From NCBI RefSeq assembly GCF_001027745.1, contig NZ_LECU01000002.1, positions 62,001-126,000 of the forward strand: 64,000 nucleotides of DNA, written 5' to 3'. The notes below the pieces were generated by a model. That model was not told the origin of the DNA. It saw nothing but the letters and a program-made list of their open reading frames with translations, and ran no database searches. Source of the stretch: Pedobacter sp. BMA (GTDB taxonomy: Bacteria; Bacteroidota; Bacteroidia; Sphingobacteriales; Sphingobacteriaceae). Below, piece after piece: positions 28,094-33,260 of this stretch (its first letter is position 1; each line of letters starts with the position of its first letter). Position numbers and translations under genes: made by a program.

Positions 28094-28127
28094 AACCGGA
28101 TGCAGAACGCCTGCATCCGGTTTTTTT
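28094..28127 (+). terminator. Rho-independent terminator after the phosphohexomutase
   Basis: Perfect 12-pair stem AACCGGATGCAG (28094-28105) with CTGCATCCGGTT (28111-28122), a 5-base loop and seven T from 28121. Confidence 0.92.
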
Positions 28128-28226: not shown

Positions 28227-28257
28227 TTTGCAGCAATCAATTTCTTTAATACTTTTG
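28227..28257 (+). promoter_or_regulatory. Promoter of the copper-type cluster
   Basis: TTTG (28227-28230) and TACTTTTG (28250-28257) are separated by exactly 19 bases, a full Bacteroidota promoter. The ATG is only 11 bases beyond the -7 element, so the 5' leader should be about 5 bases or less. Confidence 0.8.
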
Positions 28258-28268
28258 CAGCAAATACA

Positions 28269-28640
28269 ATGTTCAAAAAGCTCCTGATATATTTATTAAT
28301 CATTTGCTCAGTTTCAAACGGAGCAATGCAATTGGTAGTATACTCAGGTTACAAAATGAATAAAGCATACATTACCAGTGTATTTTGTATCAATAAAGAA
28401 CATCCTGAATTGCATTGCGACGGGCAGTGTTTCCTCGCTAAAAAGCTAAAAGATTTAGAGTCGAAAAATAAACAAGCCCAGGAAAGTCTTAGACGTGTTG
28501 CAGAGGCTGAACCGAAATTTCAATCTTTAGCAGTCAACCATCAACTCCCATATTTTATCATTAAAACAGAAACGGGTTACCTGGAAAAACCAGTAAAAGA
28601 CCTTTCTGCATCTGTCTTTCATCCTCCGAAAACGGTTTAA
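28269..28640 (+). CDS. Small membrane-anchored or exported Cys-motif protein
   Basis: 123 residues with an N-terminal hydrophobic segment (about 5-22) that is either a signal peptide or an anchor. The mature part has the pattern C-x8-C-x3-C with nearby His residues (FCINKEHPELHCDGQCFLAKKL), which could bind a soft metal such as copper. The following region is a Lys/Glu-rich helix. I do not know its function; proteins of this shape are common in Bacteroidota near copper and haem genes. It has its own strong promoter and is first in line before the MbnP/MbnH pair. Confidence 0.65.
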   Translation: MFKKLLIYLLIICSVSNGAMQLVVYSGYKMNKAYITSVFCINKEHPELHCDGQCFLAKKLKDLESKNKQAQESLRRVAEAEPKFQSLAVNHQLPYFIIKTETGYLEKPVKDLSASVFHPPKTV

Positions 28641-28817
28641 GTAATTTTTCAAGCGACGGTTTTGCTGTCGAACAGTTTAGCTCGTTAAATATGATGCAAT
28701 TAAAGCATATTGTAGTTACTCGAAGCTGAGCAAAAACGATCTGTGCCGTTAATTCTTTCAAACCATAAGTTTTGACGTTGTACAGGCTTACTTTTTACTT
28801 ATCCAATTTTCGAAATA

Positions 28818-29588
28818 ATGAAATTATCACAATACCTCCTGGCATTGCTATGCCCTATTATTATGCTCTCATCATGCAAAAAAAATGATGATGCCGTCAC
28901 AGCCGACACTAAATCGAGTTTTACCATTGAGTTTGAACATCAGGTTAATGGCGCTGCGCTGTCCTTAAACACCACGAGATACAAAAATGCCAAAGGTGAA
29001 GATTTTAGTATCTCCACTTTTAAATATTATGTCAGTAATATCAAATTAACTAAAGCAGATGGCACAAGCTATTTAATACCAGAAAGCTATTTCCTGATTG
29101 ACGAATCAAAAAGCACATCAAAAACTATTACCCTTACTGATGTACCAACTGGTGATTATACCAGGATAGAATATACTATTGGCGTAGATTATGCACGCAA
29201 CTTTGCTGGTGCCCAAACAGGTGCTTTAGATCCCATCAACGGGATGTTCTGGACATGGAACAGCGGTTACATATTCGTTAAACTGGAAGGTACGTCGCCC
29301 CTTTCTACCGCAACCGGGAAAGCCTTAACGTTCCATATCGGAGGCGTTCTAGACCCAAATAATACCATTAGAACGTTCTCAGCCGAAATAAATGCGGCTA
29401 ACCCATTAAGGGTAAGGACCGACGCAAAACCTAACATGCACTTCATCGTAAACGCGGCTTCTTTGTTTACAGGGGTAACGGATATCAGTTTTGCAACCTT
29501 AAACTTCACAATGGGTGGTGCAAACTCAGTTGTTGTAGCAGACAATTACGCTAAAGGATTGTTTCGCCTGGATCATATTCATAACTAG
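28818..29588 (+). CDS. MbnP-like copper-binding lipoprotein
   Basis: 256-residue lipoprotein; the lipobox MLSSC puts the lipidated Cys at residue 20. The body matches the MbnP family: the N-terminal strand FTIEFEHQVNG (His41), a conserved ISTFKYYVSNI segment, the Trp-rich GMFWTWNSGYIFVKLEG (Trp145, Trp147) and TFHIGG (His173). In methanotrophs MbnP binds copper after its partner MbnH turns a Trp into kynurenine. The partner gene follows after one base, which strongly supports the call. The modified Trp in this homologue cannot be told from sequence; the WTW pair is the natural candidate. Confidence 0.8.
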   Translation: MKLSQYLLALLCPIIMLSSCKKNDDAVTADTKSSFTIEFEHQVNGAALSLNTTRYKNAKGEDFSISTFKYYVSNIKLTKADGTSYLIPESYFLIDESKSTSKTITLTDVPTGDYTRIEYTIGVDYARNFAGAQTGALDPINGMFWTWNSGYIFVKLEGTSPLSTATGKALTFHIGGVLDPNNTIRTFSAEINAANPLRVRTDAKPNMHFIVNAASLFTGVTDISFATLNFTMGGANSVVVADNYAKGLFRLDHIHN

Positions 29589-29589
29589 T

Positions 29590-30624
29590 ATGCCAAAGAA
29601 ATCAATCGTTTTTGCAATGCTTATTCTAAGCATTGCATTAATGTATGCCTGCAGCAAAAATGATGATGATGCAATTGCCGGAGAAACACTGGTTAAGTTT
29701 ACCATTCCATCTAATTTTCCAGCCCCCGCATACAATTTCGAAGACAATATACTAACTAATGCTGGTTTTACTTTAGGTAAAAAGTTGTTTTACGATGCCA
29801 GGCTCTCTGCTGATAAAAGTGTTTCCTGTGGTAGCTGCCATCAGCAATTTGCCGCATTTGCCAATCTCGACCACAAGGTTAGTCACGGCGTAAACAACTG
29901 CCAGGGCAAACGAAATGCGCCTCCACTCTTTAATCTGGTCTGGCAGAAAGCTTTTTTTTGGGATGGAGGTGTTAAGAATATCGAAACTTCACCTCTCAAC
30001 GCCATCACCGATACTTGTGAGATGGGTACCGATATTGCAACGATAATTGCTTTTTTGAAAAATACTGCTCCATATCCTGAGTTATTCAGAAAGGCTTTTG
30101 GCACTGCAGAAATCAATTCGCAATTACTGCTGAAGTCAATTACCCAATTTACAGCTGTGTTAGTATCGGGGAATTCAAAGTATGATAAGGTAATACGTAA
30201 TGAAGGAGCTGCATTTACAGCTACTGAGTTGGCTGGTTATAATCTTTTTAAAGAAAAGTGCTCCTCCTGCCACACTGAGCCTTTGTTTACCGACTTCTCT
30301 TACCGGAGTAACGGACTTGACCTGGTGAGTAATGATGAAGGTCGGGCAAATATTACAGGCTTAAGTGCTGATTTAGGGACATTTCGTGTTCCGACTTTGC
30401 GGAATATTGAATACACTTTCCCTTACATGCACGATGGACGCTTTTACAGTCTGGACGAAGTATTAGAGCATTATAACTCCGGCGTTAAACAAGCTAAGAA
30501 TTTAGATGAAAAGCTTAAAGGTGGTATCGCTTTAAGTGCCGCTGAAAAAGAACAAATCAAAGCATTTCTAAAAACATTAACAGACAATGAATTTATCAAA
30601 AACACTTTTTATAGCGAATCGTAA
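29590..30624 (+). CDS. MbnH-like di-haem enzyme (cytochrome c peroxidase / MauG superfamily)
   Basis: 344-residue lipoprotein with lipidated Cys21 (LMYAC). Two haem c sites are present, Cys80-x2-Cys83-His84 (SCGSCH) and Cys224-x2-Cys227-His228 (KCSSCH), as in bacterial di-haem peroxidases. The family segments GKKLFYDARLSADKSVSC and the C-terminal YTFPYMHDGRFYSLDEVLEHYN are conserved. Because it directly follows an MbnP gene, it is best read as MbnH, which makes a high-valent di-haem state and oxidises a Trp of MbnP, rather than as a hydrogen peroxide scavenger. Its end overlaps the next gene by 38 bases. Confidence 0.82.
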   Translation: MPKKSIVFAMLILSIALMYACSKNDDDAIAGETLVKFTIPSNFPAPAYNFEDNILTNAGFTLGKKLFYDARLSADKSVSCGSCHQQFAAFANLDHKVSHGVNNCQGKRNAPPLFNLVWQKAFFWDGGVKNIETSPLNAITDTCEMGTDIATIIAFLKNTAPYPELFRKAFGTAEINSQLLLKSITQFTAVLVSGNSKYDKVIRNEGAAFTATELAGYNLFKEKCSSCHTEPLFTDFSYRSNGLDLVSNDEGRANITGLSADLGTFRVPTLRNIEYTFPYMHDGRFYSLDEVLEHYNSGVKQAKNLDEKLKGGIALSAAEKEQIKAFLKTLTDNEFIKNTFYSES

Positions 30625-31564
30625 GCTATTAGCTATCGCATTCCTTTTTTTTAGCACCAATATTTTCGCCTGCGATATTTGCGGTTGTTTTATGGGTATT
30701 ACGCCATACTATAATAGGAACAGTATTAGTTTGTTATATCGGTATCGCTCATTTAATGGTTACGATGGACAATCTCATTCGTTGTTCCCGAATGGTGGAA
30801 ATTTCTTTATTCCTGCACGTAGCCAGAATAACCCCATCACTAATCATGCTGGTAATCCTTCCGATTACGAATTATATCGCTCAGTTGAAGTTAGAGGCAA
30901 GTATTTTATCAATAACAGACTTGAAATAAACGCCATTTTACCTTATGTTTCAAATAGCGAGCGGTATAATGGCTATACCTCGTCTATTTCCGGAGTGGGT
31001 GACGTAAACATCTATGCAGGGTACCATCTGTTACAAAAGCTGGAGAGTAACTTTAAGCAACAACTAGTTGCAGGTGCAGGAATTAAACTTCCAACAGGAA
31101 AAAACGATCTGAAAAATAACGAGGGTATCCGTTATTCATCACTTATGCAGGGCGGTACAGGTAGCACTGATGGATTTGTTTACCTGAATTATATGGTTGG
31201 CATAGGCAAGTTTGGCGCAAGCCTTAATACTTCATATAAAGTAATCGGAACAAATAGCCGTAATGAAGGTATAGCCAACAGTACTACCAGTTTTCTGAAT
31301 GTATTTTATACGCAAAGAATTGGGGAAGATATACAGGCAATGCCATCGGCCCAGTTTTTTTACGAATATTCAGGGGGAGAGAAATATAATGGCGTAAAAA
31401 CAGGTGAGCATGTGATGAATAATTTAATGGGTGGTGTTGGTGCAGATATCTATTATAAAAATGTTGCCCTCAATGCAGGAATACAGAAAAATATTTGGGA
31501 AGCAGAAACAGACCATCCAATGAGTGCAGGAAAGGTTTATGTTGGAATGACTTATAATTTTTAA
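30587..31564 (+). CDS. Outer-membrane beta-barrel (transporter-like) protein
   Basis: 325 residues. A signal peptide (about 1-28, with AIAFLFFSTNIFA) is followed at once by the Cys-rich motif CDICGCFMGITP, then alternating beta-strands that suit a small porin of the phenol-degradation MetA-type/transporter family, ending in Phe (GMTYNF). The start lies 38 bases inside the preceding gene; no later start would keep the signal peptide. The N-terminal CxxCxC of the mature protein could bind a metal ion at the periplasmic face. The role is likely in copper passage across the outer membrane, but this is inferred from the neighbours. Confidence 0.65.
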   Translation: MNLSKTLFIANRKLLAIAFLFFSTNIFACDICGCFMGITPYYNRNSISLLYRYRSFNGYDGQSHSLFPNGGNFFIPARSQNNPITNHAGNPSDYELYRSVEVRGKYFINNRLEINAILPYVSNSERYNGYTSSISGVGDVNIYAGYHLLQKLESNFKQQLVAGAGIKLPTGKNDLKNNEGIRYSSLMQGGTGSTDGFVYLNYMVGIGKFGASLNTSYKVIGTNSRNEGIANSTTSFLNVFYTQRIGEDIQAMPSAQFFYEYSGGEKYNGVKTGEHVMNNLMGGVGADIYYKNVALNAGIQKNIWEAETDHPMSAGKVYVGMTYNF

Positions 31565-31575
31565 AATCTATAATA

Positions 31576-32025
31576 ATGAAGAGAATATTAATACTGGCAA
31601 TCGCCATTAGTGCGCTAATTCATAGCGGATGTAATACTGACCCTGATTCAAATGCAATTAAAAAAGAAGTACTTAACATTCACGATAAATTGATGATGGA
31701 CGGAGAGAAAGTTGTGAAAAACCGGATTAAGCTGGATTCGGTATTGAAATCAGATCAACTTAATTCCTTATCAGATGCTAAGCGAATTACATTGCTGATT
31801 ACACGTTTAAATGCAGCTGATGAAAATATGATGGACTGGATGCATTTTTTTAAGGATGACTTCAAGGGTAAAAGTGAACAAGAAGCCCTGGCGTACTACA
31901 AATCTGAGATGCTGAAAATAAGAGCTGTAGAAGATGAATATATCAGGATTATCAGAGAATCAGATTCAGTGCTTAAGGCTCATCATGTGTCGCCATCAGC
32001 GAAAATGGAACATCATAAAAACTAA
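31576..32025 (+). CDS. Helical lipoprotein of unknown function
   Basis: 149-residue lipoprotein; lipobox IHSGC puts the lipidated Cys at residue 19. The rest is predicted mostly helical, with heptad-like spacing and Met/His clusters (KLMMDG, ENMMDWMHFF, KMEHHKN at the end) that would suit Cu(I) or Cu(II) binding. Similar Bacteroidota proteins are often labelled 'viral A-type inclusion protein', a name without functional meaning. It follows the barrel gene by 11 bases and is surely in the same operon. Confidence 0.6.
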   Translation: MKRILILAIAISALIHSGCNTDPDSNAIKKEVLNIHDKLMMDGEKVVKNRIKLDSVLKSDQLNSLSDAKRITLLITRLNAADENMMDWMHFFKDDFKGKSEQEALAYYKSEMLKIRAVEDEYIRIIRESDSVLKAHHVSPSAKMEHHKN

Positions 32026-32090
32026 ATTTATACGCTTTAAATTCCGTCCTCCATCACAGAGGTTGTATATTTACACTTTAATAAAATATC

Positions 32091-32741
32091 ATGAATAAAA
32101 TTGTTTTTTCAATATCAGTTTGCTTATCAGCTGCTGTCATATTTTCATCTTGTCAGCAAGATAAGAAATTACCCTTTTACGGAGAACGCCATGCTGAAAC
32201 TGTTAGAGATGCTTCGGGGGCTGAAAAGATTGATACGGTTTATCAAACCATTCCCAATTGGTCGTTTCTAAATCAGGATAGTGTTGTGACTACCAATACA
32301 GTAACAGATGGTAAAGTTTATGTTGCTGATTTTTTCTTTACGTCTTGCACAACCATCTGCCCTACTATGCACCGCAATTTAATGACGGTTTATAATGACT
32401 TCAAAAGTAATCCCGATGTGATGTTTATCTCACATACCATCGATTTTAAATATGATAAGCCATCAGCCCTTAAAAAATATGCCCGGAAATTAGGCGTAGA
32501 TGGACCTAAATGGCAGTTCCTTTATGGAAGTAAAGACAGTGTTTATACACTTGCAGAAAAAAACTATCTCGTTGCTGTTGGAGAAGACAGTACAGCAAAG
32601 GACGGTTACATACATCAGGGTTATCTGGTTTTAATCGACAAAGACAGGCGCATCCGCGGTGCTTACGATGGCACCAAAGAAGATCAGGTTGAACAGTTAA
32701 AGAAAGATATTCCACTACTATTGGCGGAATATAAAAAATAA
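32091..32741 (+). CDS. SCO1/SenC family copper-binding thioredoxin-like lipoprotein
   Basis: 216-residue lipoprotein (lipidated Cys21 in FSSC). The thioredoxin fold carries the SCO copper site: Cys86-x3-Cys90-Pro (SCTTICP) and the downstream His175 (GYIHQGYLV). SCO proteins deliver copper to, or reduce, the CuA site of cytochrome oxidase in the periplasm. No oxidase gene is in the window, so here it may serve another target. It follows the helical lipoprotein by 65 bases and is part of the copper-type cluster. Confidence 0.9.
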   Translation: MNKIVFSISVCLSAAVIFSSCQQDKKLPFYGERHAETVRDASGAEKIDTVYQTIPNWSFLNQDSVVTTNTVTDGKVYVADFFFTSCTTICPTMHRNLMTVYNDFKSNPDVMFISHTIDFKYDKPSALKKYARKLGVDGPKWQFLYGSKDSVYTLAEKNYLVAVGEDSTAKDGYIHQGYLVLIDKDRRIRGAYDGTKEDQVEQLKKDIPLLLAEYKK

Positions 32742-32745
32742 TATA

Positions 32746-32826
32746 TTTTGTAACGGAGACACAGATTGTACTTGGATTAAAGTGTATATTTTTCCGCTGT
32801 CTCTGATGTTTCCGTTGCAATACAAA
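32746..32826. repeat. Imperfect inverted repeat between SCO and cytochrome c genes
   Basis: Left arm TTTTGTAACGGAGACACAGA (32746-32765) and right arm 32797-32826 (CTCTGATGTTTCCGTT...TACAAA) are complementary with two gaps. It fills most of the gap and could attenuate transcription or be a degenerate repeat element. Confidence 0.4.
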
Positions 32827-32837
32827 CCACAAATTAC

Positions 32838-33260
32838 ATGCGTAAGTATATCATCAATTCTCTTTCTCTACTTTCTATTCTCGCGATTGTTATTTCCTGC
32901 CAGAATCAGGAAACAATTGATCTGCAAAACTATATGTCTAATGGCAAAGATATCTATATCGCCAGGTGTCAGAATTGTCACGGTAAAAATGGAGAAGGAT
33001 TGGGTGAACTCGCACCTCCGTTAACGGATTCCATTTTTCTGAAAACTAACAAAAGCCGTTTAGCTTGTATGATTAGAAACGGGGCAAATGAAAGTCTTTT
33101 AATTAGCGGTAAAACATATAAAGAAAAAATGCCAGCTTTTCCGGAATTAGCCGATATTGATGTTGCTCAGGTAATGGTGTTCATCACGAACTCTTTTGGT
33201 AACAACCAAGGCTTTGTACCTTACAAAGAAGTATCTGTCCAGTTGCAAAGTTGTAGATAG
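32838..33260 (+). CDS. Mono-haem cytochrome c lipoprotein
   Basis: 140-residue lipoprotein (lipidated Cys21 in VISC). One haem c site, Cys44-x2-Cys47-His48 (RCQNCHGKNGEGLGELAPPL), with the usual Gly-rich turn after it; the Met of KMPAFPEL is the probable sixth ligand. It is a small class I cytochrome and would pass electrons in the periplasm, possibly to or from the MbnH-like enzyme or SCO in the same cluster. It is the last gene of the block; rnpB follows. Confidence 0.88.
   Translation: MRKYIINSLSLLSILAIVISCQNQETIDLQNYMSNGKDIYIARCQNCHGKNGEGLGELAPPLTDSIFLKTNKSRLACMIRNGANESLLISGKTYKEKMPAFPELADIDVAQVMVFITNSFGNNQGFVPYKEVSVQLQSCR

Follow-up and report, generated by a model that had tools for sequence, protein, structure and literature searches.

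The seven-gene cluster analysed here lies in a 64,000-nucleotide stretch of the Pedobacter sp. BMA genome (contig NZ_LECU01000002.1, positions 62,001 to 126,000 of the forward strand; the whole stretch is called the window), and its core is a gene pair for an MbnP-family lipoprotein and an MbnH/MauG-type di-haem enzyme. The closest known pair is MbnP/MbnH of Methylosinus trichosporium OB3b (7L6G; 6E1C, 'di-heme enzyme', which we take to be the MbnH of this species), and kynurenine in MbnP is reportedly the subject of a 2021 paper. Compared with the OB3b pair, the Pedobacter proteins have no four-Cys motif, miss the narrow NCBIfam cut-offs and are accompanied by a predicted leader, a barrel, a Met/His-rich helical lipoprotein (HEL) and SCO. 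The genome also has no MbnB match (PF05114), which agrees with an earlier note on this DNA that had reported MbnB, MbnC and a precursor peptide as missing; no search was aimed at MbnC or at a short precursor peptide. MbnP/MbnH pairs far beyond the methanobactin producers were described in 2013 (PMC3621798), and MbnPH-like genes were reported in 2022 from some copper operons headed by CruR (PMC9426467). Both the pair outside methanobactin and the MbnPH-like genes in CruR operons are therefore already known and are no novelty of this locus. A similar arrangement is found in CorA/CorB and MopE/SACCP of methanotrophs, in which a kynurenine copper(I) site occurs with a co-transcribed di-haem partner and a role in copper acquisition was proposed (PMC3912023). 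Those sites differ in having two His ligands, and the sequences are not markedly similar to MbnP (PMC3621798).

The first gene of the cluster (CYS) resembles the leader of the cruR-crtA(bfrG)-PepSY operon of Bordetella pertussis (PMC9426467, PMC12914433). In CruR, 45 residues separate a CXXC from a RAPP motif, copper takes effect on the nascent chain, and the gene lies 162 bases ahead of a TonB receptor gene (PMC9426467), while stalling at the Pro-Pro was shown in vitro (PMC12992588). CYS fits this plan, as it is a small, putatively exported Cys-motif ORF standing first, with a C-terminal Pro-Pro at a fixed distance from the Cys motif, a long gap behind it and a putative outer-membrane copper importer next, and the operons share a link to haem-copper oxidases. 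Unlike CruR, CYS is not a DUF2946 protein and has CxGxC-66-FHPP instead of CXXC-45-RAPP, and the importer here would be a channel-type barrel (325 residues) in place of a TonB receptor. CYS also obeys three of the rules used for CutF-like proteins (fewer than 150 amino acids, Pro-Pro at most 15 residues from the end, a gene at most 1000 nt downstream on the same strand; PMC9973294), with its 123 residues, three residues after the Pro-Pro and mbnP 177 bases on. A further rule asks for a cleavable Sec signal peptide, and here the N terminus of CYS is hydrophobic as judged by eye. As that survey counts many Bacteroidota members, with TonB and PCuAC neighbours, CYS may be among its lists; its main text has no mention of MauG or mbn. 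CutF raises expression with copper (PMC9973294), whereas for CYS the direction is only borrowed from CruR. Bacteroidota yielded no RAPP/RGPP leaders of copper genes according to PMC12992588; the FHPP end of CYS is not of this kind, and RGPP ends do occur before MbnP in three of our loci (L089, L101 and L109). In the open-access literature we found no report of the order CYS-MbnP-MbnH-barrel, of an FHPP-ended family recognised by that feature, or of a link between a COG4313-type CDICGC barrel and copper.

Judged from the sequence and its comparison, the cluster is suggested, with a probability of about 0.6, to be a copper-starvation operon that would capture copper at the outer membrane and feed the CuA centre of the respiratory oxidase, with a copper-sensing leader as its first gene. 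The seven ORFs stand in a row on the plus strand as earlier described (Table 1). Two sets of loci were compared with it. A wider set from 296 Bacteroidota genomes has 80 fetched loci, in which 82 of the 100 MbnP places found beyond the own genome are represented (the other 18, two mid-list and 16 of the weakest, were left out); a named set comprises the best 80 of 461 confirmed loci. MbnH directly follows MbnP in 79 of the 80 wider loci and in 75 of the 80 named ones. The complete seven-gene order is kept in 35/80 named loci and the order Cys-MbnP-MbnH-barrel in 62/80, and the median gaps of the two junctions after the CYS-mbnP gap are 1 and -38 bases. When the window is added to the wider set (81 loci), CYS is present in 45, the barrel in 33, SCO in 9, and HEL and the cytochrome in 4 each, indicating that the last three belong to the Pedobacter neighbourhood. 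The link of homologous clusters with copper, which the earlier note had made a point to check, is seen in their neighbours, namely SCO and, in sister loci, PCuAC, YHS, DUF411 and TonB receptors.

Table 1. Features of the cluster and its borders (positions in the window)
Feature	Position	Strand	Basis
Terminator-like hairpin of upstream gene, 12 pairs	28094..28122	+	operon boundary
Promoter-like TTTG-N19-TAnnTTTG, 11 bases ahead of CYS start	28227..28257	+	pattern
CYS, predicted copper-sensing leader ORF, 123 aa	28269..28640	+	ORF list, motif and spacing comparison
CDGQC codons (CxGxC motif of CYS)	28416..28430	+	read from sequence
His-Pro-Pro codons, CYS C-terminus, predicted stall site	28620..28628	+	motif comparison
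Gap from leader to mbnP, 177 bases	28641..28817	+	ORF coordinates
MbnP-family lipoprotein, 256 aa	28818..29588	+	PF20243, E 7.2e-59
Met143-Phe-Trp145-Thr-Trp147 codons	29244..29258	+	aligned to GMAWNW of 7L6G
His173 codon, candidate copper ligand	29334..29336	+	aligned to a His of 7L6G
MbnH/MauG-type di-haem enzyme, lipoprotein, 344 aa, Tyr295	29590..30624	+	PF03150, E 2.7e-48
Outer-membrane barrel, predicted 12-strand, 325 aa	30587..31564	+	structure comparison
CDICGC codons after barrel signal (residues 29-34)	30671..30688	+	read from sequence
HEL, Met/His-rich helical lipoprotein, 149 aa	31576..32025	+	motifs in relatives
SCO copper chaperone, lipoprotein	32091..32741	+	PF02630, E 7.5e-21
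Monohaem cytochrome c, lipoprotein	32838..33260	+	PF13442, E 2.8e-8
RNase P RNA, bacterial class A, 268.5 bits	33320-33701	+	downstream cluster boundary

CYS has no family match, and homologues are found in at least 117 of the 296 genomes. CYS has a hydrophobic N terminus, as judged by eye, and the motif C-x9-C-x-G-x-C with three invariant Cys. From the last Cys of CxGxC to the Pro-Pro we counted 66.1 +/- 2.2 residues (range 61-73, 181 distinct proteins; one hit, L076, was excluded for want of its C-terminal part), and by set the value is 66.6 +/- 2.0 in 50 proteins, 65.0 +/- 1.5 in 68 that are mostly from Pedobacter, and 66.9 +/- 2.4 in 63 from loci without MbnP. The Pro-Pro stands 1-8 residues from the end in 180/181 proteins, while only 20 of the 1616 remaining genes have a Pro-Pro among the last ten residues (14 of the 382 with 90-200 residues). 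The linkers have a median identity of 14% in sampled pairs. Because the spacing and the terminal Pro-Pro are kept while the linkers are mostly unlike, CYS is most likely a copper-sensing upstream ORF rather than a structural part. It might instead be a working copper binder, periplasmic or membrane-anchored, that passes copper to MbnP or to the importer, in keeping with its hydrophobic N-terminal segment, its invariant Cys and its place among exported copper proteins. We regard this as unlikely, because the family keeps its length and Pro-Pro rather than the sequence from motif to end, because CYS precedes importer genes with a long gap behind it, and because unrelated small ORFs ending in Pro-Pro replace it before MbnP in 6 of the 36 CYS-less loci. 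These six end in RGPP or RDPP (L089, L101, L106, L109), FHPP (L091) or TPP (L097), and that of L109 is a PF11162 (DUF2946) hit; nothing of the kind was found in 28 other loci, and the hits in L065 and L105 look like chance.

The leader is also found apart from MbnP. We hand-chose 60 such CYS loci from a longer list of hits, 16 of them for an adjoining barrel hit and 44 from the rest; besides the 16, in which a barrel comes next by selection, a TonB receptor follows in 38 of the other 44 and neither in 6. SCO follows in 10 of the 60 loci, PCuAC in 7 and PepSY_TM in 7. Among six TonB receptors after CYS, the best NCBIfam match is the copper receptor TIGR01778 in three, below its cut-off.

The product of the second gene matches PF20243 with 199.3 bits (cut-off 27), and structure prediction gives it the MbnP fold, so this assignment of the earlier note stands, as do the places given for Trp145 and Trp147. 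Its closest named relative is from P. aquatilis (88% identity). Met143, Trp145, Trp147 and His173 all align to 7L6G, by whose copper-holding residues the Met and His are candidate ligands; among 84 Bacteroidota MbnPs, Trp145 is conserved in 82 and His173 in 83. A search of the PDB with the single MbnP sequence or a close alignment gave no match, and one with a diverse MbnP alignment (A5) retrieved 7L6G. PF20243 occurs in 78/296 Bacteroidota genomes and 47/139 genera, and once in the own genome. Six MbnP variants (L089, L098, L101, L104, L106 and L109) have Asn143 in place of the ligand Met, five of them with a His right before the Trp (NNHWxW); four are headed by a small ORF ending in RGPP or RDPP and two by CYS.

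One base past the MbnP stop, as earlier noticed, begins a di-haem gene of the MauG/MbnH type. Its product belongs to the PF03150 superfamily, carries CxxCH at 80 and 224, and has MbnH (TIGR04039) and then MauG as best NCBIfam models, both below cut-off. Since it resembles solved di-haem peroxidases (best E 7.1e-41) and a superoxide dismutase gene is present in 3/81 MbnP loci, the cluster could be taken for a copper or peroxide protection system, in which the cytochrome c feeds a cytochrome c peroxidase while surplus copper is sequestered by MbnP. This seems rather improbable, because the neighbours are importers and oxidase copper chaperones, the row is without an efflux pump, and the Met of the peroxidases is replaced by Tyr295. 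In the alignment this residue falls on a Tyr in 6E1C and on a Met in the peroxidases shown; among 89 di-haem genes of these loci, paralogues included, 80 have Tyr there and 8 have Phe, with one gap. A pair that works without kynurenine and binds copper or a different metal by Met143, His173 and the His-rich ends is comparably doubtful. That the narrow NCBIfam cut-offs are not reached and that kynurenine in Bacteroidota is a prediction would suit such a pair, but the conserved Trp145 and the enzyme beside MbnP in nearly all loci are hard to explain without a shared reaction. PF03150 occurs twice in the own genome, the other CCP/MauG-type gene being the only further one found and lying away from the cluster (G000:C6:405309-405752).

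MbnP, MbnH, HEL, SCO and the cytochrome each show a lipobox-like Cys near the N terminus, as read from the sequence, and five of the seven proteins are therefore probable lipoproteins. In the named set, at least three acidic residues within eight of the lipid Cys were counted in 26/73 MbnP and 32/80 MbnH proteins with a recognised lipobox, and in 0/45 SCO, 2/40 HEL and 2/43 cytochrome proteins. The lipoprotein export signal of Bacteroidetes is position-sensitive, C-X-K-(D/E)2-X (PMC5080379), and is not matched exactly by the window proteins. That MbnP and MbnH are exposed at the surface is hence left as a hint.

The barrel gene overlaps the end of the di-haem gene by 38 bases, and its product is predicted to have a 12-strand COG4313-type channel fold. 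Closest to it are a COG4313 outer-membrane channel (4RL8) and FapF (5O65), from which it differs in its copper-gene neighbours, in the CDICGC after its signal and in having no Pfam family at E 0.1, so that the COG4313 likeness is one of fold only. The CDICGC had already been pointed out, and CDICGC, CDVCGC or CDICGS is present in 66 of 68 named-set barrels (for L165 and L167, whose called ORFs run far upstream, no motif was read). The 33 best barrel matches in the 296 genomes are all beside MbnP and the next three beside the leader alone, in a ranking by an alignment (A4) built from MbnP-linked barrels. Barrels of the wider family also adjoin CYS without MbnP/MbnH, and a sister operon with the order CYS-barrel-SCO-PCuAC was found in five loci. 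The post-CYS barrels of L194-L198 start with a His/Met-rich stretch instead of Cys and are followed by SCO and PCuAC, and DUF411 genes lie near four of these five.

HDxxM and MxxWM are each kept in 43 of 44 HEL relatives, and the SCO protein is of the SCO1/SenC family (PF02630), with CxxxC in 45/45 and a later His in 44/45 named-set proteins. The own genome has one strong SCO match, which is the SCO of the locus (E 9.8e-21), a single COX2, whose CxxxC is of the CuA type, and nothing that matches PCuAC at E 0.001. Among the 296 genomes, PCuAC is present in 73 and MbnP in 78, and both occur together in 3 against 19.2 expected by independence; in the 223 genomes outside the class of the window it is 3 against 11.1. 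MbnP and HEL are thus weakly suggested to act in place of PCuAC.

Putting these parts together, we suggest that the Cys motif of CYS would sample copper during its own translation. When copper is missing, the ribosome would stall at the C-terminal His-Pro-Pro and the downstream genes would be expressed; when it is present, the stall would be relieved and the genes shut down. This direction is borrowed from CruR, and the opposite one of CutF-like proteins is the alternative. Going by structure and literature, the di-haem enzyme may oxidise Trp145 of MbnP to kynurenine, which with Met143 and His173 would form a putative Cu(I) site. The barrel, which seems to occupy the place of the TonB-dependent receptor of sister operons, may serve as the outer-membrane route with its N-terminal CDICGC as a Cu(I) landing site. 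MbnP and HEL would stand in for PCuAC and pass copper to SCO, which would load the single CuA-type oxidase subunit, and the cytochrome c may serve either the di-haem enzyme or the oxidase. The earlier picture of a copper acquisition or delivery system thus keeps its support in fold, enzyme type and copper neighbours, except that the Cys-motif protein is most likely a leader and not a part of the relay.

In a wider and more tentative proposal, to which we give somewhat less than an even chance, Bacteroidota would possess a nascent-chain copper switch of their own (CxGxC - 66 residues - FHPP), unrelated in sequence to CruR. It would head interchangeable outer-membrane copper importers, either TonB receptors or a COG4313-type channel that has no plug and offers Cys or His/Met as landing site. 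In one branch the switch would control a copper protein whose kynurenine is made by a di-haem enzyme, and this protein and a Met/His lipoprotein would jointly replace PCuAC as donor to SCO and the oxidase. If true, oxidase assembly in culturable Pedobacter would be linked with a copper site built on kynurenine, a copper sensor at the ribosome and an importer of the channel type. Little is known of bacterial copper acquisition (PMC12914433), and the locus opens the questions of an MbnP serving an oxidase outside methanotrophs, of FHPP as a copper-tuned arrest motif and of copper import by a barrel without the TonB plug.

Several results weigh against the copper-starvation operon. Its link to copper comes from neighbours and homology, and among the 81 MbnP loci 36 are without CYS and 48 without the barrel. 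The CYS homologues were found by profiles that hold both motifs, which favours a constant spacing, and the other three of the six TonB receptors after CYS look siderophore-like. Homology of CYS to DUF2946 was considered and rejected, as no PF11162 hit was found in the own genome at E 0.1 and a comparison of profiles (only 7 and 18 sequences) gave a probability of 0.5%. MbnP scores 57.7 bits against the 140 of MbnP_like_WxW (TIGR04052) and is not classed there, some PF20243 proteins are without WxW, and the sole Cys of the mature protein is the lipid Cys, while 7L6G is named a four-Cys protein. Likewise, the di-haem enzyme reaches 205.1 of the 362.85 bits needed for TIGR04039 and is not classed under it. 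Besides the strong SCO match, the genome has three weak ones in other places (8e-7 to 1e-4) that likewise clear the family cut-off. PCuAC is present in 0/73 genomes of the class of the window, with or without MbnP, and its avoidance of MbnP is therefore partly a matter of descent. Finally, the two ends of the CYS-mbnP gap are conserved in Pedobacter and complement each other (mean duplex energy -12.2 versus -6.2 for shuffled letters), yet no covariation backs a stem that would join the end of CYS to the mbnP leader: swapped partners pair as well as own ones (2446/5000 permutations), and the stem is broken in several species. For these two reasons it is not claimed. Two loci (L123 and L140) look compensatory by eye.

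Regarding the borders, the RNase P RNA starts 59 bases past the cytochrome gene. The one strong promoter that the earlier note had placed ahead of the row is less certain than stated there; a promoter-like element is present upstream. Its TAnnTTTG part lies at most 60 nucleotides from the CYS start in 63/72 named loci, and the full element in 36/72. The pattern alone was found 8 times in the window against 4.8 expected, and a sigma-70 promoter scan gave no excess (19 found versus 19.2 expected). Nor need the promoter be the only one, since HEL and SCO, 65 bases apart in the window, are separated by a median of 321 bases among 38 relatives, and SCO and the cytochrome may therefore be transcribed from their own start there. 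The CYS-mbnP gap ranges from 105 to 346 bases across 36 Pedobacter loci, the window included, and some of these gaps (L112, L117, L118) hold long hairpins resembling inserted intergenic repeats.

Other arrangements of the same genes were also observed. A second architecture, CYS - YtkA-like lipoprotein - TonB receptor - MbnP - MbnH, has the receptor in the barrel's stead (L081, L085-L088 and L092), and in L085-L088 an additional CYS stands between the TonB receptor and MbnP; the YtkA-like cluster is present in 12/81 MbnP loci. Moreover, L071, L080 and L084 have the row CYS - YHS lipoprotein - SCO - exported Fe/Mn superoxide dismutase - CYS - MbnP - MbnH - barrel.

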